NCBI RefSeq assembly: GCF_012317045.1
Contig: NZ_CP051154.1
Location: 3,472,001-3,536,000, forward strand
Source of the DNA: Leifsonia sp. PS1209
GTDB taxonomy: Bacteria > Actinomycetota > Actinomycetes > Actinomycetales > Microbacteriaceae
DNA: 64,000 nucleotides
Direction: 5' to 3'
Part shown: positions 11,255 through 38,982 of the stretch, in pieces
Layout: every line of letters starts with the position of its first letter
Numbering within the stretch: position 1 is the stretch's first letter
Notes under the pieces: generated by a model
What the model was told of the DNA's origin: nothing
Databases searched by the model: none
What the model saw: only the letters and a program-made list of their open reading frames with translations
Program-made: the position numbers and the translations under genes

Positions 11255-12552
11255 GCCGCGAGTCATACGCCGACGTCCTCCGCATCCCGGGCGCCGCCGC
11301 GCTGTTCGGCTCCGCCCTGGTCGGGCGGCTCGCGTTCGCGACCGTCTCGCTGTCGCTGCTGCTCAGCGTGCAGGCGTCGACGGGAACCTTCGCCGCCGCC
11401 GGAGCAGCGACCGGCGCGTTCGGCGTGACCAACGTGATCGCCTCCCCCACCCGCGCGCGGGCCGTCGACCGGTTCGGGCCCACCAGGGCGCTGCTGGTGA
11501 TGGGGGTGCTGTTCTCCGCATCCCTCGTCGCCACCGCGTTCGGCTGCCTGACCGACGCCCCGGCCGCGCTGCTGATCGTCCTCGCGGCAGTCGCCGGTGT
11601 GTTCGCGCCGCCGCTCGGGTCGACCATGCGTGTGATGTGGGCGTCCATCGCCCCGGATGCGCGCATCCTGCCCCGCGCGTACAGCCTGGATGCGGTGGCG
11701 GAGGAGCTGCTGTTCACCACCGGCCCCCTGCTGGTCGGGCTGCTCGTGTTCGTCGCCGGGCCGGTGACGGCGCTTTTCACGACGGCCGGTGTGGCGTTCG
11801 TGGGGACCGCGCTGTTCTGCCTGCACAGGCACGTGCGCGCGAAGGGCGCGGCGACGACGACAGCGCACGCGCACGAACGCCCGCTGCGGCAGCGCGGCTT
11901 CCCGACGGTGCTGGTCGCGCTGACAGGGGTCGGCCTGGTGATCGGCACCGTCGAGACGGCTGTGCCCGCGTTCACCGCCGAACGGTCGATGGCGGCGGCG
12001 TCCGGCATCCTGCTCGCCCTGCTGGCGGCGGGGAGCGCGGTCGGCGGGCTGGTCTACGGCCACCGCGCCTGGAAGCCTGCGCTGGCGATCCGGCTCACCG
12101 TGCTGAGCATCGCGTTCGTCGCGGTCAGCGCCATCGCCGCCCTCGCGCCGGACCAGATCACGCTCGGCGTCATCCTGTTCGGCCTCGGGCTGTTCCTCGC
12201 TCCGACGGTCATCACGGCGTACCTGCTCGCCGACGCGCTCACCGCCGAACACGTGCGCACCGAGGCGACCACCTGGACCAACACCGCCGTGAACTTCGGC
12301 GTCGCGGTGGGGGCGGCGGTGGCGGGCGTGCTCGTCGACCACGCGGGCACGACCACCGCCTTCGCGGTCGGCGCGACGGTCGCGGGCGTGCTGGTGCTCG
12401 CCGCCGGTTCGCGCACGCGCGCGCTCGGCGTGGCCAGCGCGCCGGCCGCAGGCGGCGCGCCCGCAGCGGGTGGCCCCACCTCCCCCGAGGAGGACGGCAC
12501 CACCCCCACAGCCGTCTCCGCCCCCGGCGACCTGCCCGCATCCCGGGACTAA
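11251..12552 (+). CDS. MFS transporter, putative efflux pump
   Basis: A 433-residue inner-membrane protein with twelve predicted hydrophobic helices in two halves separated by a polar, His/Arg-containing loop near residue 200 (HRHVRAKG...HAHERPLRQR). It resembles actinobacterial major facilitator proteins of the drug/solute:proton type, without recognisable substrate residues. The C-terminal 40 residues are a Gly/Pro/Ala-rich cytoplasmic tail. The GTG start overlaps the stop of the ArsR-type regulator by four bases, so the two are translationally coupled and the regulator presumably senses the transported compound. The gene ends just before a dispersed palindromic repeat. Confidence 0.87.
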   Translation: MSRESYADVLRIPGAAALFGSALVGRLAFATVSLSLLLSVQASTGTFAAAGAATGAFGVTNVIASPTRARAVDRFGPTRALLVMGVLFSASLVATAFGCLTDAPAALLIVLAAVAGVFAPPLGSTMRVMWASIAPDARILPRAYSLDAVAEELLFTTGPLLVGLLVFVAGPVTALFTTAGVAFVGTALFCLHRHVRAKGAATTTAHAHERPLRQRGFPTVLVALTGVGLVIGTVETAVPAFTAERSMAAASGILLALLAAGSAVGGLVYGHRAWKPALAIRLTVLSIAFVAVSAIAALAPDQITLGVILFGLGLFLAPTVITAYLLADALTAEHVRTEATTWTNTAVNFGVAVGAAVAGVLVDHAGTTTAFAVGATVAGVLVLAAGSRTRALGVASAPAAGGAPAAGGPTSPEEDGTTPTAVSAPGDLPASRD

Positions 12553-12566
12553 CTCCCCCCAGACAG

Positions 12567-12626
12567 ACGAAATACCAGCAGCTGTCGCGAAACGCGCGGG
12601 ATGCGCGACAGTTACTGGTATCTCGT
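12567..12626. repeat. Dispersed palindromic element, copy A
   Basis: Arms 12567-12589 and 12604-12626 are reverse complements with three mismatches, enclosing a 14-base loop AAACGCGCGGGATG. A second copy with almost the same arms and loop lies at 42361-42418. This copy sits between convergent genes (MFS stop at 12552, hexapeptide gene stop at 12638) and may act as a bidirectional terminator, but the presence of a copy between divergent genes argues for a mobile or otherwise functional repeat family. Confidence 0.8.
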
Positions 12627-12637
12627 GGGGTGGGGCG

Positions 12638-13108
12638 CTACGCCGCTCGGCGGGTGGCGTCCCTCCGGGCGTGCTGTGCGGCGGGGCGCACGGGCGCCGA
12701 CAGGGCGGCGCGGGCTGCGGCGGAGCCGCGGAGCTCGATCACCGTGCCGGCCTCCACCTGCGCGTCGCGGTCGATGCGCGCTCCGTTGCCGACCATGACG
12801 GCCTGGCCCAACTTGGCGTTGCTGCCGATGCGCACACCGCTGCCGATCACGCATCCTGCTCCAACGTGGACGTTCGCGCCCACGAAGGTGCGGTCGCCGA
12901 CCGTCGCACCGGTGTCGATCCAGCTGCCCGCGCCGACGTATGCGTCGAGTCCGACGCGGGCGTCCTTCTCGACGTATGCGGTCGCGTCGATGAACGCCGA
13001 CTCCGCCACACGCGCGGTGGGCGCAACGAGGCCACGCCCGTTGACGTGCCTCTTGTACTTGATTACGGCGCCGGTCTCATCCTCGAGCTCTTCGATCATT
13101 CGTGCCAT
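12638..13108 (-). CDS. Left-handed beta-helix (hexapeptide repeat) protein
   Basis: A 156-residue protein dominated by hexapeptide turns of the I/V-G-x-x-A-x type (VGAGSWIDTGATVGDRTFVGANVHVGAGCVIG is spread over several rungs), as in acyltransferases and gamma-carbonic-anhydrase-like proteins. The three metal-binding histidines of gamma carbonic anhydrases are not evident, and no acceptor domain is attached, so activity is unknown. The first 25 residues (MARMIEELEDETGAVIKYK) form a charged helix. ATG 13108 was chosen because AAGGGAGA lies 6 bases upstream. The C-terminus is Ala/Arg-rich. The promoter region is shared with the divergent YdeI-like gene. Confidence 0.78.
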   Translation of the reverse strand: MARMIEELEDETGAVIKYKRHVNGRGLVAPTARVAESAFIDATAYVEKDARVGLDAYVGAGSWIDTGATVGDRTFVGANVHVGAGCVIGSGVRIGSNAKLGQAVMVGNGARIDRDAQVEAGTVIELRGSAAARAALSAPVRPAAQHARRDATRRAA

Positions 13109-27989: not shown

Positions 27990-28024
27990 CCGGCGGGTAC
28001 GGAGCGCGACGACGGCCGGCGCCG

Positions 28025-28483
28025 CTAGGAGACGTGCGCGGCAGCCTCCAGCGCCGGCAGGGCCGCCGCGAGCGCCGTGACCTGCTCCGGTGTCAGCTCG
28101 GCGATGATCGACTGCACCGTGCGGGCCCGGTCGGAGCGGGCGCGCAGGAGCAGCTCGATGCCGGCCTCGGTGCCGCTGACGAACGACGAGCGGCCGTCGT
28201 CCGGGTCCGGCTCGCGCTGCACCAGGCCGCGCGACTCGAGGTCGGCGACCACGCGGGTGATGGTCGGGGCGGCGACAACCTCGATGGCGGCGAGCTCGCC
28301 GGGGCGCAGCGGCCCGCGGCGGACGATGGTGGACAGCGCGGAGAGCTGGCCGTGGCTCAGGTCGCCGGTCGACGAGCGCATCCGGCGGTTGAGGCGGCCG
28401 ACCGCGAGCGCCAGGCGTCCGGCGAGGTCGTCGTCGTTCAGGGCGGAGCGTCCGTCCACGGACCGCCCCTTCTCGGTCACCAC
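28025..28483 (-). CDS. MarR-family transcriptional regulator
   Basis: A 152-residue winged-helix regulator. The HTH is centred on GPLRPGELAAIEVVAAPTIT with recognition helix TRVVADLESRGLV, followed by the wing EPDPDDGRSS and a C-terminal dimerisation helix. It lies 15 bases downstream of the drug-type MFS transporter gene on the same strand and is almost certainly cotranscribed, acting as its repressor through the palindrome at 30252-30293. The start is GTG 28483 or the adjacent in-frame GTG. Confidence 0.9.
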   Translation of the reverse strand: MVTEKGRSVDGRSALNDDDLAGRLALAVGRLNRRMRSSTGDLSHGQLSALSTIVRRGPLRPGELAAIEVVAAPTITRVVADLESRGLVQREPDPDDGRSSFVSGTEAGIELLLRARSDRARTVQSIIAELTPEQVTALAAALPALEAAAHVS

Positions 28484-28498
28484 GGTCGTTCCTTCACG

Positions 28499-30241
28499 CT
28501 ATGCGCGGCTCGCACCGACTTCCTCGCCTTCTTCGCTGACCGCCCGGGATTCTGCGATCTTCTCCTCATGAACATACTTGCCGCCGCCTGCGAATGAGGC
28601 GATAGCTCCGATGATGCTCATGATGGCGGCGGCGATGAAGACGACGACGAGGCCGTCGTGGAACGGTCCGGAGATCAGCTGGGGGAAGAACTCCTTGCCG
28701 GTGAGGGTGGCCGCATCCACGTGGGGGCTGCTGAGCACGCCCGTCGGCCCGAGCAGGCTCGCGATCGGGTTGTAGCCGAGGAAGGCGGCGAACAGGCTGC
28801 CGACCGGAGGGGTCGCGCCGATCTGCGTCGCGACGGCGTGCGGGACGCCGTGCGTGGTGAGCCCGTTCGTGAGCGCCGTCGGCAGGGCCACGGAGAGGCC
28901 GGCGATCATCAGCGAGAAGAAGATGCCGATGGACAGCGAGCTTCCCGCGTTGAGGGCGACGCCCGCCATTCCGGATGCTGCCCCGCGCTCGTTCGCCGGC
29001 ACGCTGTTCATGATGGAGGTGCGGTTCGGCGACGAGAACAGGCCGGAGCCGATGCCGTTGAGGCCGGTGAGCACGGCGAACTGCCAGTAGTCGAAGTTCA
29101 CCGGGATGAGCAGCAGGCCCACGAAGGTGACCGCCACGAGCGAGAGGCCGACCGTCGCGAAGACGCGCGAGCCGTACCGGTCGGACAGCGCGCCGGAGAT
29201 CGGCCCTGCGACCAGGAAGCCGACCGTGATCGGCAGCATGTAGATGCCGGCCCAGAGCGGCGTCGACTCGTAGCTGTAGCCGTGCAGCGGCAGCCAGATG
29301 CCCTGCAGCCAGATGATCAGCATGAACTGCAGGCCGCCGCGCCCGATGGCGGCGAGGAACCCGGCGAAGATGCCGGACGAGAACGACCGGATGCGGAACA
29401 GCCGCATGTCGAACATCGGCGACTTCACCCGCAGCTCGATCAGGACGAACGCCGCCAGCAGCACGATGCCGCCGATGATCGAGCCCAGCACCCACGGGTT
29501 GCCCCAGCCTTGCGAGCTTCCGCCGTACGGCTGGATGCCGTACGTGATGCCGGTGAGCAGGGCGATCAGGCCGACCGCGAACGTGGCGTTGCCGATCCAG
29601 TCGATCCTGCCCGGGTTCTTCTGGCCCACCTCGTGCAGCGACTTGTACGACCAGATGGTCCCGATGATGCCGATCGGCACGGAGACGAAGAACACCGCAC
29701 GCCAGTCGATCTCGGCGAGCACCCCGCCGACGATGAGGCCGATGAAGCTTCCCGCGATGGCCGCGACCTGGTTGAGGCCGAGGGCGAACCCGCGCTTGTT
29801 GGCGGGGAACGCATCCGTGAGGATGGCGGTCGAGTTCGCGAACAGCGCCGCGCCGCCGACGCCCTGCACGAACCGCCACACGATCAGCCACATCGCGGCA
29901 GGTCCGCCGGTGAACGGGTCGAGCGACAGCGCGATGGCGGCCACGGTGAAGATGACGAACCCGGCGTTGTAGATCTTCACGCGCCCGAACTGGTCGCCCA
30001 TCCTCCCGAACATCACGACCAGCACGGCGGTGACGAGCATGTAGCCCATCAGCATCCAGAGCAGGTAGGAGACGTTGCCCGGTTCGAGCGGGTTGAGCTT
30101 GATGCCGGTGAAGATCGCGGGGAGCGAGATGATGACGATCGACGAGTTGATCGTCGCCATCAGCATCCCGAGGGTGGTGTTACTGAGCGCGACCCACTTG
30201 TAGTGCGGGTGATCCTTGGCGAACATGCCGGTGGGTGGCAA
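28499..30241 (-). CDS. Drug-type MFS transporter (DHA2, 14-helix)
   Basis: A 580-residue membrane protein with fourteen predicted helices, of the EmrB/QacA drug:proton antiporter group. The segment [24 protein letters not shown] is its conserved first helix, and [15 protein letters not shown] is motif A of the superfamily. The C-terminus is an acidic tail. The start is ambiguous: TTG 30241 has GAAGGA about 9 bases upstream, ATG 30226 is internal ([11 protein letters not shown]), and ATG 30274 lies inside the operator. I chose the TTG on ribosome-site grounds. It is cotranscribed with the MarR gene. Confidence 0.88.
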
Positions 30242-30251
30242 AAGAGTGCGT

Positions 30252-30293
30252 CCTTCGAGTTGGTTTATATGCATTAACTATATAACTCGAAGG
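30252..30293 (-). promoter_or_regulatory. Nested palindromic operator of the MFS-marR operon
   Basis: Perfect 10-base arms CCTTCGAGTT and AACTCGAAGG enclose a 22-base AT-rich core. Inside, TTATAT and ATATAA form a second inverted repeat around TATAGT- and TATAAA-type -10 sequences of the minus strand. A MarR dimer bound here would block RNA polymerase. The distal arm overlaps the likely ribosome site GAAGGA. Confidence 0.65.
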
Positions 30294-30319: not shown

Positions 30320-31372
30320 TCACACGGTCAGCGTGACCTTCTTCAGCCCCGCGGGGTTGTCCGGGTCGAGGCCGCGGCCGACGGCCAGCTCCAGGGCGAT
30401 GCGCTGCAGCGGCACGATCTCGCGCAGGGGAAGCAGTTCGTCGTCCTGCTCGTCCAGCGGGAGGTGCACGGCGGCGCCGTCGACCAGACCGGGGCCGAGT
30501 TCGATCACGCGTGCGCCGAGTGCCGTGGCCCCGGAGGCGAACGACAGCACGGAGTCGCGTCCGGCGGGGCTGCCGGTGAGGGCGACCACCACCGAGCCGG
30601 GGACCACCTGGCCGAGCGGGCCGTGCGTCGCGTCGGCCGCGCTCCAGCCCGAGGCCGCGATCGCGTTCGTCTCCATCAGCTTCAGCGCGCCCTCGCGGGC
30701 GGTCGACATCGAGTATCCGCGGCCGACGACGATCACCCTGTCGACGCCGGAGAGGGCTGCGACCGCGGCGTCCACGGCTGCGGGAGCGGCGAGGTCGGCT
30801 GCGACCGAGGCGGCGATCCCGCGCACGCGCTCGTCGAGCTCCGGCCATCCTGTTCCGGCTGCGCGGTGCAGGGTCAGCGCGAGAGCGAGGAGTTCGGCGG
30901 TGTACGTCTTCGTGGCGGCGACCGACGTCTCCGGGCCCGCCGCAAGCGAGACGTGAACATCGGCGGCCCCGGCGAGCGCGCTGCCCGGATCGTTGGAGAA
31001 ACCGATCACCGGCACGTCGGCCGCCGCGATGGAGGCGACGGTCGCGAGCAGGTCGGGAGAGCTGCCGGACTGCGAGACGGCGAGCGCGACCGAGCGCGGG
31101 AAGGCGAGCTGGGTGCCGAAGCCGGTGACACTGGCCGGGGTCGCGAGCATCGCCGGGATGCGCAGCAAGTTGTGGGCGAGGTACTGGGCGTACATCGCGG
31201 CGTGGTCGCTCGACCCGCGTGCCGCGAAGACCAGGAGTTCCGGCCGCTGCGACGTGATCAGCTCTGCCGCGGCGTCGATCGACGCGCGGGCGTCGAGGAG
31301 GTCGAGCCAACGGTCGGGCTGCTCGGCGATCTCCGCGCGCATCCGGTGGCCGGCGACGGTTTCGCCGCTCAC
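30320..31372 (-). CDS. Double-SIS-domain sugar isomerase/deaminase (GlmS isomerase-like)
   Basis: A 350-residue cytosolic protein with two SIS domains (about residues 35-165 and 195-330), comparable to the isomerase half of GlmS without its glutaminase domain. Visible motifs: SQSGSSPDLLAT (sugar-phosphate serines), SVAATKTYTAE, and AREGALKLMETNA...ATHGPLGQV. Relatives include NagB-II glucosamine-6-phosphate deaminases, AgaS and fructosamine deglycases. With the ROK kinase and sugar transporter of the same operon, an amino-sugar or sugar-amine phosphate is the likely substrate. The GTG start overlaps the ATPase stop by four bases. Confidence 0.88.
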   Translation of the reverse strand: MSGETVAGHRMRAEIAEQPDRWLDLLDARASIDAAAELITSQRPELLVFAARGSSDHAAMYAQYLAHNLLRIPAMLATPASVTGFGTQLAFPRSVALAVSQSGSSPDLLATVASIAAADVPVIGFSNDPGSALAGAADVHVSLAAGPETSVAATKTYTAELLALALTLHRAAGTGWPELDERVRGIAASVAADLAAPAAVDAAVAALSGVDRVIVVGRGYSMSTAREGALKLMETNAIAASGWSAADATHGPLGQVVPGSVVVALTGSPAGRDSVLSFASGATALGARVIELGPGLVDGAAVHLPLDEQDDELLPLREIVPLQRIALELAVGRGLDPDNPAGLKKVTLTV

Positions 31373-32133
31373 GAGCTGAGCCCCGTGATCATCGCGACCA
31401 GTTCGTTGTGGCTGGTCTCGTCGATGCGCTTGGTGCCCACCTGCGTTCCGCGGCGCAGCACGGAGACGCGGTCGGCGACCCGGAACACCTGCTCCATGTT
31501 GTGGCTGACGATCAGCACGGCGGCCCCGCGCTCCTTCAGCTTCAGGATCAGCTCCTCCACCTTGGCGGTCTCCGCGACGCCGAGGGCGGCGGTCGGCTCG
31601 TCCATCAGCACCAGGCTGCTGGCCCAGTGGGTGGCCCGGGCGATCGCGATCCCCTGGCGCTGGCCGCCGGAGAGGTCGCTCAGCGTGGCACGCGCCGACG
31701 GGATGCGCACATCCAGTTCGTCGACGAGCGCCTGCGTGCGCGCGGCCATCGTCTTGCGGTCGAGCGTTCCGAAGGGCTTGCGCCTGAGCTCTCTGCCGAG
31801 GAACAGGTTCATGTATACCGGCTGCAGGTCGACGAGCGCGAGGTCCTGGTAGACCACCTCGACTCCTCTGCTCCTGGCGTCCGACGGGTCGCGGAAGCTG
31901 GCCCGCTCGCCGTTGACCCAGATCTCGCCGTCGGTCGGCTGGTACATGCCGGAGATGATCTTGACCAGCGTCGACTTGCCAGCGCCGTTGTCGCCGACGA
32001 GGGCGACGATCTCGCCAGGCTCGATCTCGAGGTCGAAGCGCTTGATGGCGACGATGCCGCCGAAGTGCTTGGTGATGCCGTCGAGCCGAAGCGGCTTCAC
32101 CGTCGTGTCCTGCGGAGCGGTGGTGGGGGTCAT
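31369..32133 (-). CDS. ABC transporter ATPase, simple-sugar type
   Basis: A 254-residue single-domain ATPase. Walker A GDNGAGKST, Q-loop VVYQDLALVD, signature LSGGQRQG, Walker B LVLMDEP and the H-loop VSHN are complete. It belongs to the sugar (RbsA/XylG/FrcA-like) group but has one domain where RbsA has two fused, as in FrcA-type systems. It pairs with the permease and binding protein of this operon. Four-base overlaps join it to the YhfX-like gene upstream and the SIS gene downstream. Confidence 0.93.
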   Translation of the reverse strand: MTPTTAPQDTTVKPLRLDGITKHFGGIVAIKRFDLEIEPGEIVALVGDNGAGKSTLVKIISGMYQPTDGEIWVNGERASFRDPSDARSRGVEVVYQDLALVDLQPVYMNLFLGRELRRKPFGTLDRKTMAARTQALVDELDVRIPSARATLSDLSGGQRQGIAIARATHWASSLVLMDEPTAALGVAETAKVEELILKLKERGAAVLIVSHNMEQVFRVADRVSVLRRGTQVGTKRIDETSHNELVAMITGLSS

Positions 32134-33356
32134 GCTGTCCTCCCGGATGCGGCGAGCGCCGCCGCGGTCGTGATGGGTGCAGAGCCGTCGGCCGACCAGA
32201 TGCCTGCGACGGTGGGGTTTCCGGTGCTGAGCCCGGCGATGCCGGCTGTGAGGCCGCGGGTGACGAAGACCTGCGGGCGGAATCCGAACAGCACGGTGTC
32301 CCCCGGCTGAACGGTGCGGCCGGAGAGCGGGATGGTGGCGTAGTAGTCGATGGCCTCCGGAGCCGGCATGTCGACCAGCAGCTCGGGGGCGGATGCGGTG
32401 TCCGCTCCCTGTCCGACGATCAGGGCACTCGTCGTGGTCCCGCCGAGCACGGGGTCGACGTAGAGGCCGCCGCCGAACACGTACGCATCGCCGTTCCAGA
32501 GGTGCGACACCTCGGAGACGTACGCGATGGCCGGCTCCTCGATGAGGTCGTGGGCGGCGTGCAGCGGCGTCGTCCCTGTGAGGCCGTGGCCCGGTTCGAC
32601 CTGCGTCGCCCCTGCGGCGGCGAGGGTCTCGAGGACGGACACGGACGTGGTTCCCGGGGCGTTGACCTGGACGCCAGTGCGGCCGGCGCCTTCGAGCGCA
32701 CGGAGCGCCGTCGTCAGGGTCTCCAGGTTGTGGGTGGAGCGGGCGGTGCCGGTCTCCGCGTCGAACAGGGTCGCGGGGAAGGTGGTGATGCCGGCGAACC
32801 GCACGCCGGGGATGGCGTCGACCCTGTCGGCCGCCGCGACGATGTCGGCTGCGTCGAATCCGCCCTCGTGGCCGCGGTAGAACCGGTCGCCGGGAGCTGC
32901 GATGCGCAGCAGCACGTCCTGCACCCTGCCGCGTTCCGTTGCCGCCGCACCGGCCTCGCGCGCCTTCTGCTCCGAGAAGACGGTCCAGTAGAGCGGTTCG
33001 AGCGCCGCGGCGTCCGCGGCCGAGTGGCGGGGGATCTGCACGAGGTGGCCGAGGTGGCCGATGGCCAGGCCGCCGCTCGCCGCTGCGACCGCGCACTCCA
33101 GGTCGACGCCGACGGCGTGACCGATGCCTCCGGCCGCGATGGCACGGGATGCGTCCGGGTTGCGGCCGATCTGCTTGGTCATGGCGAACGGCGTGAGACC
33201 GAGCCTGGCCGACTCCGCCGCGAGGGCGGAGGCGTTGCGGGTGACCGCATCCAGGTCGATGACGTAGGTGTTGGGCGGGATGGCGCCGCTCTGGTGGAAC
33301 CGGGTGGCCGCGTCGAGCAGTGCCTGGTTGCGGCGGCGGAGGAGGTCGAGGAACAT
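32130..33356 (-). CDS. YhfX-like PLP-dependent fold-III enzyme
   Basis: A 408-residue protein of the YhfX family, related to alanine racemase and D-threonine aldolase barrels. The PLP lysine is most likely Lys61 in FAMTKQIGRNP, where racemases have VKANAYG. YVIDLDAVTRNASAL is the usual N-terminal strand, and GHGLTGTTP and the C-terminal beta domain are conserved-looking. E. coli yhfX lies in an operon of unknown function together with php, a phosphotriesterase homologue; here a phosphotriesterase-like gene is again in the same operon. The reaction is unknown. It overlaps the ATPase gene by four bases. Confidence 0.82.
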   Translation of the reverse strand: MFLDLLRRRNQALLDAATRFHQSGAIPPNTYVIDLDAVTRNASALAAESARLGLTPFAMTKQIGRNPDASRAIAAGGIGHAVGVDLECAVAAASGGLAIGHLGHLVQIPRHSAADAAALEPLYWTVFSEQKAREAGAAATERGRVQDVLLRIAAPGDRFYRGHEGGFDAADIVAAADRVDAIPGVRFAGITTFPATLFDAETGTARSTHNLETLTTALRALEGAGRTGVQVNAPGTTSVSVLETLAAAGATQVEPGHGLTGTTPLHAAHDLIEEPAIAYVSEVSHLWNGDAYVFGGGLYVDPVLGGTTTSALIVGQGADTASAPELLVDMPAPEAIDYYATIPLSGRTVQPGDTVLFGFRPQVFVTRGLTAGIAGLSTGNPTVAGIWSADGSAPITTAAALAASGRTA

Positions 33357-33383
33357 CGTTTGTCTTCCTTACTGTCTTCCCGG

Positions 33384-34364
33384 CTAGTTGCTCTTCTTGG
33401 CGCGGAGGGAGAGCGAGACCGCCACCAGGATGATCGCGCCGCGCACGATCATCTGCTGTGCGACGGTGAGCCCGCCGAGGAGCAGCCCGTAGTTGATCAT
33501 GCTCATGAAGAGGCTGCCGACCAGGGCGCCGATGATCGAGCCCTTTCCTCCGGTGAGCGCGGTTCCTCCGACGATCACGGCGGCGAGCACGCTCATCAGG
33601 TCCGAGCTGCCGAGCGTGTACGTCGCACCGGCCAGCCGCCCCGCATAGAGCAGACCGGCGAGTGCCGCCGTCACTCCACTGACGATGAACACGGCCATCC
33701 GGACGCGGTTGACCTTGATGCCGCTGACCGCGGCAGCCGCCGCCTTGTTGCCGACGGCGAGCACGTGGGCGCCGAACGCCCGCTGACGGAGCACGTGCCA
33801 GCCGATCGCCGTCACCGCCGCCGTCCACCAGATCAGAATCGGGATGCCGAGCAGCGTTCCACCGCCGAAGAGCCAGCCGAACGCTGCATCGGTCACCGGC
33901 ACGGACTGCAGGTTGGTCGACTGCTGGGCGAGGCCGGTGATGAGTCCCATCGTCGCCAGCGTGACGAGGAAGGACGGCAGCCGAACGAGCGTGACGAAGA
34001 TGCCGTTGACCGCGCCGATGACGGCGCCGACCGCGAGGCCGGCGATGGCCGCGATCAGCCACTGGTGCGTGCTCTGCAGCGTGACGGCCGCGACCAGGGC
34101 GGAGAGGGCGACGGTCGAGCCGATCGAGAGGTCGATCTCGCCGAGGCTGAGCACGAACACCGTGCCGATCGCCATCACCGTGATCGGCGTCGCCTGGGTG
34201 ATGATGTTGACCAGCGTCGTGCCGTTGAGGAAGTTGCCGCCCTGGGTGATGGCGAAGTAGAGGAACACCACCACGAACCCGATGTAGACGACGTACTGCC
34301 GCCAGTCCGCGTGACGCAGCCGTTCGCCGACGGTCATCCTGCCGTCGGTGGTCGATACAGTCAT
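33384..34364 (-). CDS. ABC transporter permease, ribose/RbsC type
   Basis: A 326-residue inner-membrane permease with about ten hydrophobic helices, of the BPD_transp_2 (RbsC/XylH) group. VFVLSLGEIDLSIGSTVALSA is the family signature, and ALTGGKGSIIGALVGSLFM is the conserved coupling segment. It forms the channel for the sugar-type transporter with the ATPase at 31.4 kb and the binding protein at 36.4 kb. Its stop is 27 bases before the YhfX gene, and its start overlaps the ROK kinase stop by four bases. Confidence 0.93.
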   Translation of the reverse strand: MTVSTTDGRMTVGERLRHADWRQYVVYIGFVVVFLYFAITQGGNFLNGTTLVNIITQATPITVMAIGTVFVLSLGEIDLSIGSTVALSALVAAVTLQSTHQWLIAAIAGLAVGAVIGAVNGIFVTLVRLPSFLVTLATMGLITGLAQQSTNLQSVPVTDAAFGWLFGGGTLLGIPILIWWTAAVTAIGWHVLRQRAFGAHVLAVGNKAAAAAVSGIKVNRVRMAVFIVSGVTAALAGLLYAGRLAGATYTLGSSDLMSVLAAVIVGGTALTGGKGSIIGALVGSLFMSMINYGLLLGGLTVAQQMIVRGAIILVAVSLSLRAKKSN

Positions 34365-35302
34365 GATGCTTCTCTTTCCGTGCTGAGCAGTGCGGCGTCG
34401 ATGGCGAGACGGACGGCGCCGAGGATGGGGGCATTGGAACCGAGGCGGCTGATGCGCACCTCGATCGTCGGCCGGCCGAGTTCGCCGAGCCAGTGGAGGA
34501 CGGGTGCGAGCAACTCCTCGCGGCTGCCGATGCCGCCGCCGAGGACGAACAATCCAGGATCGACGACGGCGTCGACGGAGACGATCGCGTGGGCGAGCCA
34601 GCGCGCCTCCTCGTCGAGCGACGCCGCCGCATCCCGGTCTCCGTCGCCGGAGCGCTCGAAGACGTCGACGGTGGTCGAACCGGTGCTGCCGGATGCGCGC
34701 TCGTAGCGCTGGACGATCGCCTCACCGCTGACGACCTCCTCCAGCGGGCCGCGGCGGTGGTTGGCGGGGTCGAGCGGGTCGGCGCCGATCGGCAGGTAGC
34801 CGATCTCGCCCGCGGCACCGCGGACGCCCTGCCAGACGCGGCGGTCGAGCACGAGCCCGACGCCGATGCCGGTGCCGACGGAGACGAAGGCGAAGCTGTC
34901 GACCTCTGCTCCCACGCCGTCGTGCAGTTCGCCGAGCGCTGCGATGTTCACGTCGTTGTCGATCACGACGGCGTGCCCCAGTCGCCTTTCGAGCTCGGCG
35001 ACCACGCCGAAGCCTTCGAGGCCGCCGAGGTTCGGCGCGAGGTCGAAGTGGCCCGCGTCCGCGTCCGGCACTCCCGCTCCGCCGACCGCCGTTGCGACGA
35101 CGGCTGCTCCGGATGCGCCGACCGCCGCGGCGAGGGCGGACACGATCTCCGTCACCTGCGCGACGATCTCGCGCCCGTCGAGGGTCGGCTGGGTCAGCTC
35201 GTGCAGGACGTCGCCCGTGATGGTCGCGATGCCTGCGCGGATCTTCGTTCCGCCGAGGTCGATGCCGACGACGTAGCGGCCGTCGGCGCGCGCGGCGCTC
35301 AT
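34361..35302 (-). CDS. ROK-family sugar kinase
   Basis: A 313-residue ASKHA-fold kinase of the ROK family. The phosphate loop GIDLGGTKIRAGI opens the protein, and VIDNDVNIAALGE, VGTGIGVGLVLD and the catalytic-region AGEIGYLP are present. The zinc motif CxCGxxGCxE of most ROK kinases is missing; the site reads PLDPANHRRGPLEEVVSG. No HTH precedes it, so it is an enzyme and not a repressor. It probably phosphorylates the imported sugar. Four-base overlaps with both neighbours show translational coupling. Confidence 0.88.
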   Translation of the reverse strand: MSAARADGRYVVGIDLGGTKIRAGIATITGDVLHELTQPTLDGREIVAQVTEIVSALAAAVGASGAAVVATAVGGAGVPDADAGHFDLAPNLGGLEGFGVVAELERRLGHAVVIDNDVNIAALGELHDGVGAEVDSFAFVSVGTGIGVGLVLDRRVWQGVRGAAGEIGYLPIGADPLDPANHRRGPLEEVVSGEAIVQRYERASGSTGSTTVDVFERSGDGDRDAAASLDEEARWLAHAIVSVDAVVDPGLFVLGGGIGSREELLAPVLHWLGELGRPTIEVRISRLGSNAPILGAVRLAIDAALLSTEREAS

Positions 35303-36309
35303 ACGGCCTCCAGGACGGCAGCGGGGTTGGCCGCGAGCATCGTCTCGATGGCGGCGTCGGAGACACCACGCTCCTGCAGCGCGGGCACGAAGACCGTTCC
35401 GAGGTACGAGTATCCGAGGGCGCCGTGGGTGCCGGGGTTCATCCACACCTCCGCGCCGGTCAGGTCCTGTGCGAGCAGGATGCGGTCGGCCAGCCCGTCC
35501 GCGACGAGTCCGGCGACGAGGTCGGCGCGTCCAGCATCCGATCGGTGGAACGATTGCTTGGCGTACTCGCCGTCGTCGCGCGCGTCGGGCACCGGACCGA
35601 GGAAGAACTCCCAGTCCTCCTTGCCGATCGTGTCGACGGCCACCCGGGCGCCGGCGTCGATCACCCGGCGCGGCAGTTCGGAGCCGAGCTGGGTGTCGAT
35701 GTGCCCGACGACCACGCGGTCGAGGTCGATGCCCTCCGAGCGGAGGATGTCGAGCTGCTCCAGCGCTTGGGTGCCGTGCGTGGTGTGCGTCATGATGCCG
35801 AGTCCCGTCGCGCGCTGGGCCCTGGCAACGGCACGGAGGCACTTCTCCTCGTGCGGCGTGATCTCGCCCAGGCTGGTCGCCTGCTCGCCGAACACGCCGG
35901 CCCGGACACCGGAGTCGCCGATCCCCTGCTCCGCGTCGCGGATGAGGCGGGCGGTGAGGGCGTCGAGGTCGGCGTCGAGCGCCCAGCCCGGCGCGTACGC
36001 CTCGAGGTAGAGGGCCGTCCCTGACACGATGTGGAGGCCGCTGCGCCGGGAGATCTCGACGAGCTGCGCGGCGTTGTCGCCGTTCGCATCGCGGCCGACC
36101 ACGTTGTACGGGCTGAGGTCGACCACGGTTCCGAAGCCGAGGTCGCGGAGCCTGGCGAGCGCATCCACCGCCCTGTCGACACTGTCGTCGCTGGTTCCCC
36201 CGGTGAGCCAGGGGCCCGGCGTGAGCGACAGCAGATGCTCGTGCGGCATCACCCGTCCGAGTTCCGCCGGGTCGACCGGGCCGAGCACGGTCATGACCTG
36301 CCGTGTCAT
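35299..36309 (-). CDS. Phosphotriesterase-family hydrolase (Php-like)
   Basis: A 336-residue TIM-barrel metal hydrolase of the phosphotriesterase family. Metal ligands are H23 and H25 (MPHEHLL), a probable bridging carboxylate in HEEKCLRAV, histidines in MTHTTHG and VGHIDTQLG, and the late aspartate in LAQDLTGAE. Members act as lactonases, including sugar-phosphate lactonases, or as uncharacterised Php proteins. It is the first enzyme gene after the binding protein in this operon. Association with a YhfX-type gene, as in the E. coli yhf operon, is notable. Substrate unknown. Confidence 0.87.
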   Translation of the reverse strand: MTRQVMTVLGPVDPAELGRVMPHEHLLSLTPGPWLTGGTSDDSVDRAVDALARLRDLGFGTVVDLSPYNVVGRDANGDNAAQLVEISRRSGLHIVSGTALYLEAYAPGWALDADLDALTARLIRDAEQGIGDSGVRAGVFGEQATSLGEITPHEEKCLRAVARAQRATGLGIMTHTTHGTQALEQLDILRSEGIDLDRVVVGHIDTQLGSELPRRVIDAGARVAVDTIGKEDWEFFLGPVPDARDDGEYAKQSFHRSDAGRADLVAGLVADGLADRILLAQDLTGAEVWMNPGTHGALGYSYLGTVFVPALQERGVSDAAIETMLAANPAAVLEAV

Positions 36310-36385
36310 CGTTCTCCTTCATGGTGCGTGCGGCAGGCGCTCGCGCGCGCTGTGCCGCCTGTTTCGTGTGCTGCTGGTGGAAGCC

Positions 36386-36414
36386 GAGCGGCCGGAGGGG
36401 GAGTCCGGCCGCTC
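36386..36414 (-). repeat. Intra-operon hairpin after binding-protein gene
   Basis: A perfect 11-base stem (36386-36396 with 36404-36414) with a 7-base loop lies 20 bases downstream of the binding-protein stop on the minus strand. It is not followed by a T run. Such hairpins commonly protect binding-protein mRNA or cause partial termination, so that binding protein exceeds the other subunits. Confidence 0.7.
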
Positions 36415-36433
36415 AGCCGTTCTGGGGGGGGCG

Positions 36434-37555
36434 TCAGCCGGTGACGCTCGCCGGCGGCTTCACGCCGTAGTCGGCCTTCCACGCCTCGTCGAGATTGGCC
36501 TTCGTGACCTTGGTCGGAACGGACGCGACGAGCTCAGGGGCCTTCTTGCCGATGACTCCGTATGCGCCGGCCAGTGCGAGGCCCTTGCCGATGCCGATGG
36601 AGCCGTTGCCCACCATGCCCGCGACGTTCGTGCCGGACATCATCGCGGCGCCGAGCGTGGTGTCGAGGTCGTTCGTGACCACTTTGATGTCGCTGCGGCC
36701 GGATGCCTTGATGGCGGCGACGACGCCCTGCGCCGCTGTCGCCCAGGAGACGTAGATGCCCTTGAGGTTCGGGTTCTTGGCGATCATCGCGGCCGCGATG
36801 GTCTGCGTCGCCGTCTCGTCGGCGAAGCCCTCGGAGTCGACGATCTTCACATCCGGGTACTCGTAGGCCAGCCAGTCCTTGAAGGCCTTGTCGCGCTGGT
36901 TGGTGAACCAGAAGTTCGCGTTGTACGACAGGTAGCCGACCTCGCCCTTCTTGCCGAGCGCGTCGCCGAGGATCTCGGCGTTGTCCCTGCCTGCCGCTGC
37001 GAGGTCTTCGGTGACGATCGAGACGAAGTCGGTCCCCGCCTTGTATCCCTCCGGCGGCGTCGTCATGATGACGAGCTTCGTCCCGGCCTCGACGGCCGGC
37101 TTGAACGCCTTGGCGGCCGAGGTGGGGTCGACGGCGATCGTGACGATGATGCTCGGGTGCAGGGCGAGCACGGTCTGGACGTTGTTGGCCTGGGTCGCTG
37201 CGTTGAAGCTCGCCTGGGTGCTCGCCACCACGTCGATGCCGAGCTTCTTGAACTCGTCGCGGGCGCCCTTCTCGACGGCCGTGACGAAGTCGGACGAGGT
37301 GTGCCAGACGAACGCCGCGGTGTACTTGCCGTCCTCGACCTTCTTCTGCTCGTCGCTGGTGAGGGACAGCTCGGACAGCGCGCCCGGCTTCTCTCCGTTG
37401 GGACCTTCGAACACGAGGCTCGGCTTCTCGGCGGGGGTGGACGAGGAGGACGCCGCTGTTCCTGCCGAACAGCCGGTGAGCGCGAGGGCCAGTGCGAGGG
37501 CGCCGACCAAAGCGGCGCGGGCGCCGGGGCGCCGGGTGGGATGTGCTGTGCTCAT
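36434..37555 (-). CDS. Sugar ABC transporter substrate-binding lipoprotein
   Basis: A 373-residue exported lipoprotein. The signal peptide ends in the lipobox LALTGCSAG, so the mature protein begins with a lipidated cysteine. The rest is a type I periplasmic-binding fold (Peripla_BP_4): TAAFVWHTSSDFVTAVEKGA, VASTQASFNAATQANNVQ and KVVTNDLDTTLGAAM are typical of ribose/xylose-type binding proteins. It is the promoter-proximal gene of the operon; a hairpin follows it. ATG 37555 was chosen because it begins the signal peptide. Cargo is unknown but should be a sugar or sugar derivative. Confidence 0.93.
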   Translation of the reverse strand: MSTAHPTRRPGARAALVGALALALALTGCSAGTAASSSSTPAEKPSLVFEGPNGEKPGALSELSLTSDEQKKVEDGKYTAAFVWHTSSDFVTAVEKGARDEFKKLGIDVVASTQASFNAATQANNVQTVLALHPSIIVTIAVDPTSAAKAFKPAVEAGTKLVIMTTPPEGYKAGTDFVSIVTEDLAAAGRDNAEILGDALGKKGEVGYLSYNANFWFTNQRDKAFKDWLAYEYPDVKIVDSEGFADETATQTIAAAMIAKNPNLKGIYVSWATAAQGVVAAIKASGRSDIKVVTNDLDTTLGAAMMSGTNVAGMVGNGSIGIGKGLALAGAYGVIGKKAPELVASVPTKVTKANLDEAWKADYGVKPPASVTG

Positions 37556-37631
37556 GTGTGGATTGCCTTCCGGGACCGGGTTGAACTCCTGTGCGGTGGC
37601 GTCCCCCGGGCATCTCGTGACCCCGTCACCG

Positions 37632-37677
37632 TTGACTTGCTGAAGCCATTTTGATTTCAACAAGCAATCAAAGTCAA
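37632..37677. promoter_or_regulatory. Nested inverted repeats between sugar operon and ROK repressor gene
   Basis: Outer arms TTGACTT (37632-37638) and AAGTCAA (37671-37677) are perfect; inner arms CTTGCTGAA (37636-37644) and TTCAACAAG (37656-37664) differ at one position. The tract is strikingly AT-rich. A minus-strand -35 TTGACT lies in it. It fits an operator for the divergent ROK regulator controlling the operon. Confidence 0.65.
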
Positions 37678-37800
37678 GCGTGAATTTGTGTCGGACAGGT
37701 TTCGGGGTGGTAAATCCTGCGAAATCCGGGCTGCGGGTGGCGCCGGATCCGCATCCTGAGCTAGTTTTGGGTTCACACTGAAGACAAAGGGGGTGGAGCG

Positions 37801-38982
37801 GTGCAAGACACCCGTGCCATCAACCGGAACGCCGTGCTCACCGCCCTGATGGGGTCGCGTCCGGCCAGCCGCAAGCAGATCGCGGAGCTGACCGGCATCT
37901 CCGCCGCAACGGTCACCCGCTCGGTCGATCAACTCCTCGCCGAGGGCATCGTGCGCGAGACGACGGAGATCGTGTCGGAGGCCAGAGGGCGCCGCGCGGT
38001 CGAGCTCGACATAGTGGCCGACCGCTCGTACGTGGTCGGCGTCGACCTCGGCGCATCCAACACCCGCATCATCGTGGCCGACCTGCTCGCCCGCCCGGTC
38101 TTCGCCTCCGAGACGCCCACCCCGACCACCATGCCGGAAGCCGAACTGGTGGAGTGGATCGCCGCGACGGTCCGCGAGGCGGCCGCCGATGTCTGGGACA
38201 GCGTCGAGCACGTCTGCCTCGGCCTCCCCGGCGCAGTGAGCCAGCGGGACCTCACCGTCTCCAACGCCCCCAACCTGCTCCAGGTCGAGTCGCCCACCTT
38301 CCTCGCCGCCGTGCAGCGCGCGGTGGGGCGGGCGATGCACTTCGACAACGACGCCAACTACGCCCTCCTCGGCGAGATGCACTACGGCGCCGCCCGCGGA
38401 GCCCCCAACGCCGCGATGCTCACGATCGGCTTCGGACTGGGCGCCGGTCTCGCCATCGAAGGACGCATCCTGCAGGGCGAACGCGGGCTGATCGGCGAGT
38501 TCGGCCAGCTGCCGATCGGCCCCCTCGGCACCCGGCTCGAACACATGGTGACGGGTGGAGGGATCCTGCGCAGGGCGGCAGAGGCCGGACTCCACCTGGA
38601 TGCGCCGGCCGAGCTGTTCGCGGACGACGCGGGCCCCGGCCTGCTGTCGCTCAGAGGGCACTTCGACCAGGCGCTCCTCGTGGTGCTCACCGCCACGACG
38701 GTCTCCTGCGACCCGCAGACGATCGTGCTCGGAGGGGGCATCGCGAACTCGCTCATCTCCTCCATCGACCGCTACCGGATCGCCCTGGAGCAGAACCTCC
38801 GCATCTCCCCCGACATCGCCACGGCCGAGCTCGGCGACTTCTCCGGGGCGGTCGGCGCCGTCGTCGCCAGTCTGCACGCGGTCTACGCGGGACTCGGCGT
38901 CGAGGAGGTGGCGATCGTGAGCCTGCCCAACGGGGACGCGCTGACCGCCGACCAGGTCGCGCGCGCCCGAAGCCTCGCCTAG
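37801..38982 (+). CDS. ROK-family transcriptional repressor
   Basis: A 393-residue NagC/XylR-type regulator. An N-terminal winged helix (residues about 5-65, with SRKQIAELTGISAATVTRSV) precedes a ROK sugar-binding domain starting at VGVDLGASNTRI. FDNDANYALLGE and the ATP-site glycines are kept, but the CxCGxxGC zinc motif found in NagC and Mlc is absent (sequence GPLGTRLEHMVTGGG). It is transcribed away from the sugar operon, with nested palindromes in the gap, and most likely represses that operon until the sugar binds. Confidence 0.9.
   Translation: MQDTRAINRNAVLTALMGSRPASRKQIAELTGISAATVTRSVDQLLAEGIVRETTEIVSEARGRRAVELDIVADRSYVVGVDLGASNTRIIVADLLARPVFASETPTPTTMPEAELVEWIAATVREAAADVWDSVEHVCLGLPGAVSQRDLTVSNAPNLLQVESPTFLAAVQRAVGRAMHFDNDANYALLGEMHYGAARGAPNAAMLTIGFGLGAGLAIEGRILQGERGLIGEFGQLPIGPLGTRLEHMVTGGGILRRAAEAGLHLDAPAELFADDAGPGLLSLRGHFDQALLVVLTATTVSCDPQTIVLGGGIANSLISSIDRYRIALEQNLRISPDIATAELGDFSGAVGAVVASLHAVYAGLGVEEVAIVSLPNGDALTADQVARARSLA

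Follow-up and report, generated by a model that had tools for sequence, protein, structure and literature searches.

Organization of the locus

A stretch of 64,000 nucleotides (nt) from the 4.09-Mb genome of the soil bacterium Leifsonia sp. PS1209, hereafter the window, carries at positions 30320-38982 eight predicted genes encoding a divergent ROK-family repressor, a substrate-binding lipoprotein (SBP), a phosphotriesterase-family (PTE) hydrolase, a ROK kinase, the permease and ATPase of an ATP-binding cassette (ABC) importer, a YhfX-like pyridoxal phosphate (PLP) enzyme and a SIS-domain phosphosugar enzyme (Table 1). Our comparisons suggest that these genes form a conserved catabolic cassette in which the PTE homologue is exchanged for M20 enzymes and the SIS enzyme, in one locus, for the deaminase NagB. 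We read the cassette as a probable route for the uptake and breakdown of an N-acylated amino-sugar conjugate, an interpretation whose chance of being right we put at about even.

Domain-model searches recovered all eight genes with the domains and at the place given by an earlier reading of this sequence (the original prediction). With the start of the ATPase gene placed at 32133, four of the six operon junctions become the 4-nt overlaps that it had described (YhfX/ATPase, ATPase/SIS, permease/kinase and kinase/PTE); at the remaining two, permease/YhfX and SBP/PTE, the genes lie 27 nt and 124 nt apart. The importer has the Peripla_BP_4 binding protein and BPD_transp_2 permease expected of a CUT2 system, together with a single-domain ATPase of 254 amino acids in place of the fused two-domain RbsA-type ATPase; variant loci such as L063 have a full-length ATPase. 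Searches with domain and curated models found no match to the yhfS, yhfT, yhfU or yhfW families among the eight genes, and Rfam gave no match at gathering score between window positions 28000 and 42000.

Table 1. Genes and candidate regulatory features of the Leifsonia locus, in window positions
Feature	Positions	Strand	Evidence and remarks
ROK-family repressor, winged helix and ROK domain	37801-38982	+	Divergent; PF00480 113.6 bits, helix-turn-helix models
Candidate promoter: -35 TTGACT (37677-37672), 18-nt spacer, -10-like CAAAAT (37653-37648)	37648-37677	-	Identified by eye
Candidate operator, perfect inverted repeat TTTGATT-N9-AATCAAA	37650-37672		Between SBP and repressor genes; overlaps SBP promoter
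Sugar-type substrate-binding lipoprotein (SBP), Peripla_BP_4	36434-37555	-	PF13407 127 bits; best PDB relative 59.1 bits
PTE-family hydrolase (P0006)	35299-36309	-	PF02126 184 bits; best PDB match E. coli Php 1bf6
ROK kinase (P0005), proposed (amino-)sugar kinase	34361-35302	-	PF00480 154.9 bits
CUT2-type ABC permease, BPD_transp_2	33384-34364	-	PF02653 119.5 bits
YhfX-like fold-III PLP enzyme	32130-33356	-	PF21279 76.1 bits, and PF01168
Single-domain ABC ATPase of the importer, 254 amino acids	31369-32133	-	PF00005; start ATG at 32133
Two-SIS-domain phosphosugar enzyme, GlmS / NagB-II type (P0001)	30320-31372	-	PF01380 96.4 bits

Spread and conservation of the cassette

We compared 91 loci containing YhfX, comprising the window, seven plasmid loci (eight of 19 plasmid records with YhfX were fetched), 80 scanned loci (the best 80 of 396 relatives) and three further loci, with the E. 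coli-type locus L017 excluded; setting aside 16 in which the called genes begin or end with a core gene leaves 75 uncut loci. Where a fetched locus had no annotation, genes were called from codon usage by our own procedure, for which the annotation of L013 alone served as a visual check, and ROK regulators were separated from ROK kinases by length at 345 amino acids, so that the apparent kinase of L073 is probably a cut regulator. As the loci of this main comparison were found through YhfX, co-occurrence with YhfX is built into it. Most actinobacterial loci have a ROK repressor divergent from an SBP-PTE-kinase-permease-YhfX-ATPase(-SIS) series whose order is strikingly constant, and most alphaproteobacterial loci run ROK repressor-M20-SBP(s)-permease-YhfX-ATPase, sometimes with SIS next. 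The original prediction depended on conserved linkage of these families beyond this genome, and that linkage holds: because this gene order is repeated across many of the fetched loci, the grouping is not a matter of chance. A search that started from the PTE homologue instead of YhfX found a close PTE in six of 297 genomes of the order, the Leifsonia genome included, with YhfX adjoining it in all five others; L197 and L198 from this search seem to duplicate L043 and L047, leaving three new cases.

The distribution of YhfX is sporadic. The nearest relatives of the window locus are in Leifsonia strains (92% in YhfX). YhfX occurs in six of 28 same-genus genomes and in eight of 99 genomes of the relatives sample, seven matching strongly (the Leifsonia genome among them) and one weakly (E=6e-4). 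The phylum sample gave matches in 19 of 396 genomes at E <= 0.001, strong only in G000, G432, G357, G265 and G379; the sample for the phylum of L063 gave 14 of 398 (its central genome included) at E <= 1e-20, with 12 of 15 places lying in E. coli-type yhf gene groups; and the alphaproteobacterial class sample gave two of 289, one of them the central genome. None of the genes that flank the window locus is shared, at more than 50% identity, by any of six close-relative loci (L020-L025, each taken with about 10 kb of flank); the cassette therefore seems to move as one piece, and the boundaries given above look like its own. Taken together, gene order and flanks are those of what seems to be a self-contained, conserved catabolic cassette that moves horizontally.

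Two loci carry a second, divergent YhfX copy (L039:2745-3941 and L044:11217-12416; 44-47% to the window YhfX). In a phage collection, the sole match was in MT836239.1 (6846-8000), a contig from faeces deposited under the name Bacteriophage sp., whose YhfX homologue is 38.6% to that of L063.

Exchange of the PTE homologue for M20 enzymes

Among the 75 uncut loci, 35 have PTE only, 33 have M20 only, none has both and seven have neither. Mapped on the YhfX tree, these states require three changes, at least two of them forced by well-supported branches; the M20 locus L039 is nested in the PTE clade and retains kinase and SIS genes, and L099 likewise holds kinase, SIS and M20 together. This pattern suggests that one job is done by two unrelated metallohydrolases. 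The residues that we take to form the M20 active site are kept in 35 aligned M20 proteins, and three M20 proteins of cassette loci score best, below its cut-off, with the ArgE/DapE deacylase model. An M20 of ArgE/DapE kind (240.4, over the cut-off) stands with YhfX and an ABC importer in L159, where PfkB-like kinases and a class II aldolase, recognised by eye, may mark another downstream route.

The window PTE scores 184 bits with PF02126 against a cut-off of 22.4 and has six likely metal ligands, H23, H25, E142, H175, H203 and D282 (alignment A6; positions after PTER). These positions, including the bridging Glu, are kept as in PTER in 18 aligned cassette PTEs (of 37); the yhf-side PTE of L163 has Lys at the bridging-Glu position. 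The PTE family is known mostly for lactones and phosphoesters. Since M20 deacylases replace it, we take the cassette PTE to be, most likely, a hydrolase of N-acyl amides rather than a lactonase. Precedent for amide hydrolysis in this family comes from mammalian PTER, which is reported to hydrolyse N-acetyltaurine and N-acetyl-beta-alanine (PMC11374699, PMC13311154).

The original prediction had the PTE homologue opening a lactone, a role that these data disfavour. Several PTE-family enzymes are lactonases, phosphosugar lactonases among them, and the enzyme could on that ground act as a phosphosugar lactonase in a sugar-acid or lactone route. We consider this very unlikely: the window PTE reaches 59.7 bits with the phospho-furanose lactonase equivalog NF045706, whose cut-off is 630; sister loci have M20 amidases in its stead; and no sugar-acid dehydratase was recognised by eye among the neighbours that recur in at least three genera. 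An SDR-like family recurs in four genera among these cassette neighbours.

The sugar-phosphate end

The best curated match of the window SIS enzyme is NagB-II, followed by GlmS, all below cut-off. In 43 SIS proteins, which like the 50 short ROK proteins considered below were drawn from all fetched stretches with some loci counted twice, the SQSG loop, a Glu and a His are present in all and a C-terminal Lys in 42; we assume these to be the phosphate loop, the catalytic Glu and His and the lysine characteristic of NagB-II and GlmS, and the locus SIS has the full set. E. coli FrlB, the SIS deglycase of the frl operon, has SDYG and no such Lys, with Glu and His common to both, so its residue pattern is absent from the locus SIS. 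What stands in the SIS slot of other loci is also informative. In thirteen M20 loci the ATPase is followed, on its own strand and within 250 nt, by a further gene, which is SIS in ten, a ROK kinase in two (L077, L129) and NagB in one: in L094, a NagB-I gene (265.3 with the nagB equivalog; cut-off 236.9) lies 31 nt after the ATPase. L077 ends in its ROK kinase and then a NagB just below cut-off (232.0), and in the yhf-type operon of L160, NagB (307.3) overlaps yhfW in our own gene calls. The SIS residues and the presence of NagB in the SIS slot argue for a deaminase rather than an Amadori deglycase, and we propose that the window SIS is an amino-sugar-6-phosphate deaminase.

This conclusion sets aside the Amadori-type deglycase role of the original prediction. 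A wider version, close to that prediction, would have the cassette process Amadori- or Heyns-type glycated amines as in the frl, fra and gfr systems, with kinase, SIS deglycase and a PTE that opens a lactone. It draws on the functional classes that the cassette has in common with E. coli frl (importer, kinase, SIS) and on the position of yhf beside frl in K-12. Yet, in addition to the residue differences, the FrlB model is absent from the matches of the window SIS (P0001) at E <= 0.001 and matches the L099 SIS weakly (43.6 of 430 bits), and the swap for M20 does not fit a lactonase. We know of no deglycase activity of NagB. We therefore regard a glycated-amine route as distinctly unlikely.

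The kinases vary as well. The window kinase has a ROK domain without the ExGH and CxCGxxGC zinc motifs: it reads EIGY at the first and has no cysteine motif. Of the 50 short ROK proteins, 42 can be read at this motif, which is EIG[YF] or a related form in 39; the zinc motif is present in two of the 50. ROK kinases usually carry ExGH and CxCGxxGC, and active-site features are reported to persist in their absence (PMC5458393). The same report describes a Tyr at the place of the ExGH His in Listeria 4htl, a protein entered in the PDB as a beta-glucoside kinase. In L063 and L151, YhfX is accompanied by BadF-family kinases, whose sole curated match at E <= 1e-8 is NagK_SO3507 (95.7 and 100.4; cut-off 370). 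The Leifsonia genome has canonical nagA (two copies) and nagB genes elsewhere, so the cassette is not its host's only amino-sugar route.

The YhfX enzyme

The window YhfX scores 76.1 bits with PF21279 (cut-off 27), and its K61, the likely PLP lysine, is invariant in 40 YhfX sequences. A fold search placed it nearest to D-threonine and hydroxyaspartate aldolases, with decarboxylases, dehydratases and racemases within a few further Z units, and with so many enzyme classes so close, the fold does not name the reaction. The model for metal-dependent fold-III aldolases and dehydratases (PF14031) has no match in the window YhfX, and a profile alignment shows the His, His and Cys that we presume to bind the metal (H421, H444 and C446 in A3) replaced by IDYY and FGFRxQxFVTR. 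Structures have been solved for E. coli YhfX (4kbx) and Php (1bf6), and among the papers that our searches listed, no title or abstract opening assigns a function to yhfX or to this locus. It is reasonable, as the original prediction had it, that YhfX may act on a released amine. A retro-aldol cleavage of D-glucosaminate by YhfX, giving glycine and arabinose, was considered and rejected, since the metal site is lost and a NagB in the SIS slot is unfit for a pentose phosphate.

Several fold-III relatives of YhfX act on D-amino acids, which raises another reading, N-acyl-D-amino-acid catabolism, in which PTE or M20 would deacylate the substrate, YhfX would racemise or otherwise process the D-amino acid, and kinase and SIS would belong to a sugar branch apart from this route and dispensable to it. 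In its favour, amino acids are the usual products of M20 enzymes. APC amino-acid permeases of one tight family occur within or beside five loci (L016, L058, L076, L083 and L097; seven genera at a looser threshold), and 30 of the 33 complete M20 loci have no ROK kinase. We nevertheless think this reading improbable. The Embleya block of L016 consists of APC permease, YhfX, kinase and SIS without PTE or M20, from which the output of YhfX seems to feed the sugar enzymes; the kinase is retained by 34 and the SIS gene by 24 of the 35 complete PTE loci; and NagB is found in three loci. Because it has no hydrolase, the Embleya block also makes aminoacyl-glucosamine conjugates less likely as the substrate.

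Repressor and candidate operator

The window repressor has EFGQ in place of ExGH. The perfect inverted repeat in front of it, and across the candidate promoter read from a conserved intergenic block (Table 1), is unique in the 4.09-Mb genome even when one mismatch is allowed. In 42 PTE-type entries (two contigs counted twice), it is exact in 12, present within two mismatches in 29 and without a match within three in 11, against a chance expectation of a mean of 0.01 per window at two mismatches. When inverted-repeat words were counted over the 36 SBP/repressor intergenic regions, the top two, which represent one site, were present in 11, and the best word of 20 shuffles in one or two. The repeat is found within one mismatch in none of 39 M20 loci and within two in two of them; there, AGTTCG-N9-CGAACT (a count with no shuffle control) precedes the repressor in 13 of the 31 M20 loci with the repressor just upstream of M20. 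These observations fit a dedicated repressor with a single candidate operator.

Proposed pathway

Gene content, conservation, replacements, residues and the unique repeat are computed observations, and all functions in the following scheme are our inferences from them. The best reading, at the even chance given above, is that an N-acylated amino-sugar conjugate is taken up, deacylated, converted in a PLP step, phosphorylated and isomerised with loss of its amine. The SBP, permease and ATPase would bring in an N-acylated amino compound that either contains an amino sugar or is turned into one. The PTE homologue would cleave the N-acyl amide bond, the job of the M20 deacylase in sister loci, as their mutual replacement suggests. 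YhfX would bind the freed amine as a Schiff base and carry out metal-free PLP chemistry, most likely an epimerisation or racemisation, or else an elimination releasing the sugar part. The ROK kinase would phosphorylate that part, and the SIS enzyme would convert the amino-sugar phosphate to fructose-6-phosphate and ammonia, as NagB would in L094, where it occupies the SIS slot; deacylation, PLP step and phosphorylation may follow one another in a different order. The ROK repressor would hold the operon off through the inverted repeat across its promoter until a pathway intermediate is present.

Several observations weigh against this scheme. The mutual exclusion of PTE and M20 closely tracks phylogeny, with its three changes in all. 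The PTER substrate contacts R204, R233 and H300 are replaced in the cassette PTE by H178, T206 and T284 (located by spacing from the metal ligands), so the substrate differs and the PTER substrate class cannot be transferred; the amide-hydrolase assignment is instead made because of the M20 replacement. The window SIS reaches 163.3 bits with the NagB-II equivalog NF046059 against a cut-off of 430, and NagB is rare, occurring in two of the 91 cassette loci (L077, L094) and one of 17 yhf-type loci. Complete M20 loci have a ROK kinase in three and a SIS gene in ten of 33 cases, and even complete PTE loci have SIS in no more than the 24 noted above, by which the sugar-phosphate half is not obligatory. 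Minimal loci exist in which YhfX accompanies an amino-acid permease (L083) or PTE (L195, a block of two ROK genes, YhfX and PTE with no importer). Lastly, L035 has unexplained 5-oxoprolinase genes at the position expected for SIS, with pxpA (12046-12816) 27 nt after the ATPase. With pxpA also near L043 (seemingly the same as L197), L196 and, by annotation, L013, a link to 5-oxoproline was considered, and was not used because the independent cases are too few.

Overall, the original prediction is partly supported: its uncharacterised route of uptake, phosphorylation and cleavage of an amino-sugar conjugate agrees with our reading, no published function having been found, and the chemistry that it gave to the PTE and SIS enzymes has been revised. 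Going further, the YhfX/PTE pair might represent an undescribed strategy for N-acylated glyco-amino acids, in which an amidase (PTE or M20) and a metal-free fold-III PLP step by YhfX, an elimination or epimerisation that frees or converts the amino sugar, are combined with interchangeable kinases and isomerases (SIS, NagB, or an RpiB-like YhfU with YhfW in E. coli) leading to central metabolism. We advance this broader idea tentatively, and doubt it more than we believe it. If true, it would assign the orphan E. coli yhf operon and give PTE enzymes a bacterial amidase role.

Relation to known systems

The E. coli yhf/php operon (yhfSTU-php-yhfWX-YZ) brings the YhfX and PTE families together as the cassette does, and the company of yhfX and php there, noted in the original prediction, is confirmed in K-12, where php, yhfW and yhfX are consecutive. 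The K-12 operon differs from the cassette in lacking an ABC importer, a ROK kinase, a ROK repressor and a SIS gene; it contains instead YhfT, YhfS, a phosphopentomutase-like YhfW and DUF2620/YhfU. The last of these (L160:14823-15191, minus strand, and 15 homologues) has a confident predicted model with an RpiB/LacAB-like fold and, in an alignment of 16 sequences, a Cys conserved within the pattern D-x5-C-x-[TS]-G-x-G. Among 17 fetched yhf-type loci, 14 have a PTE-family gene, nine a gene like the annotated amidase of L017, which scores below the Pfam cut-off, and one a NagB. In one Blastococcus genome, yhf-type groups have an HPr gene (PF00381) in or beside them (L163:6202-8168, L164:5687-7648), with enzyme I-like genes recognised by eye. 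The cassette thus offers a concrete lead on the E. coli yhfX and php families: as a compact, bounded unit with one candidate repressor site and interchangeable enzymes, it makes the question of function approachable with few proteins; the M20 exchange predicts amide hydrolysis by the PTE family, and the NagB that occupies the SIS slot indicates which end product to expect.

The closest parallel in roles is the Shewanella N-acetylglucosamine pathway, which uses NagK and NagB-II (PMC2996990) and has kinase, deacylase and deaminase roles in common with the cassette. Its NagB-II and NagK are the best curated matches, below cut-off, of the cassette SIS and BadF variants; the cassette differs in a PTE or M20 deacylase in place of NagA, an extra PLP enzyme and import by an ABC system. 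The fructoselysine frl operon, which is convergent with yhf in E. coli K-12 (NC_000913.3, 3501000-3514000), likewise has a kinase and a two-SIS-domain enzyme, and its APC importer recurs in some cassette variants, but the cassette SIS differs at SQSG and the C-terminal Lys, and the cassette kinase is of the ROK family. Mammalian PTER has the same six metal-ligand types as the cassette PTE, bridging Glu included, with three substrate contacts that differ. D-threonine aldolase and the D-serine and hydroxyaspartate dehydratases have the fold III of YhfX, in which their metal-binding H, H and C are replaced.

Outside the cassette, peptide-type ABC genes lie near several loci and were taken as common neighbours. 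Just past the end of the SIS gene in the window, the translation of 28025-30274 reads as a MarR-like regulator and a large MFS-type exporter gene.

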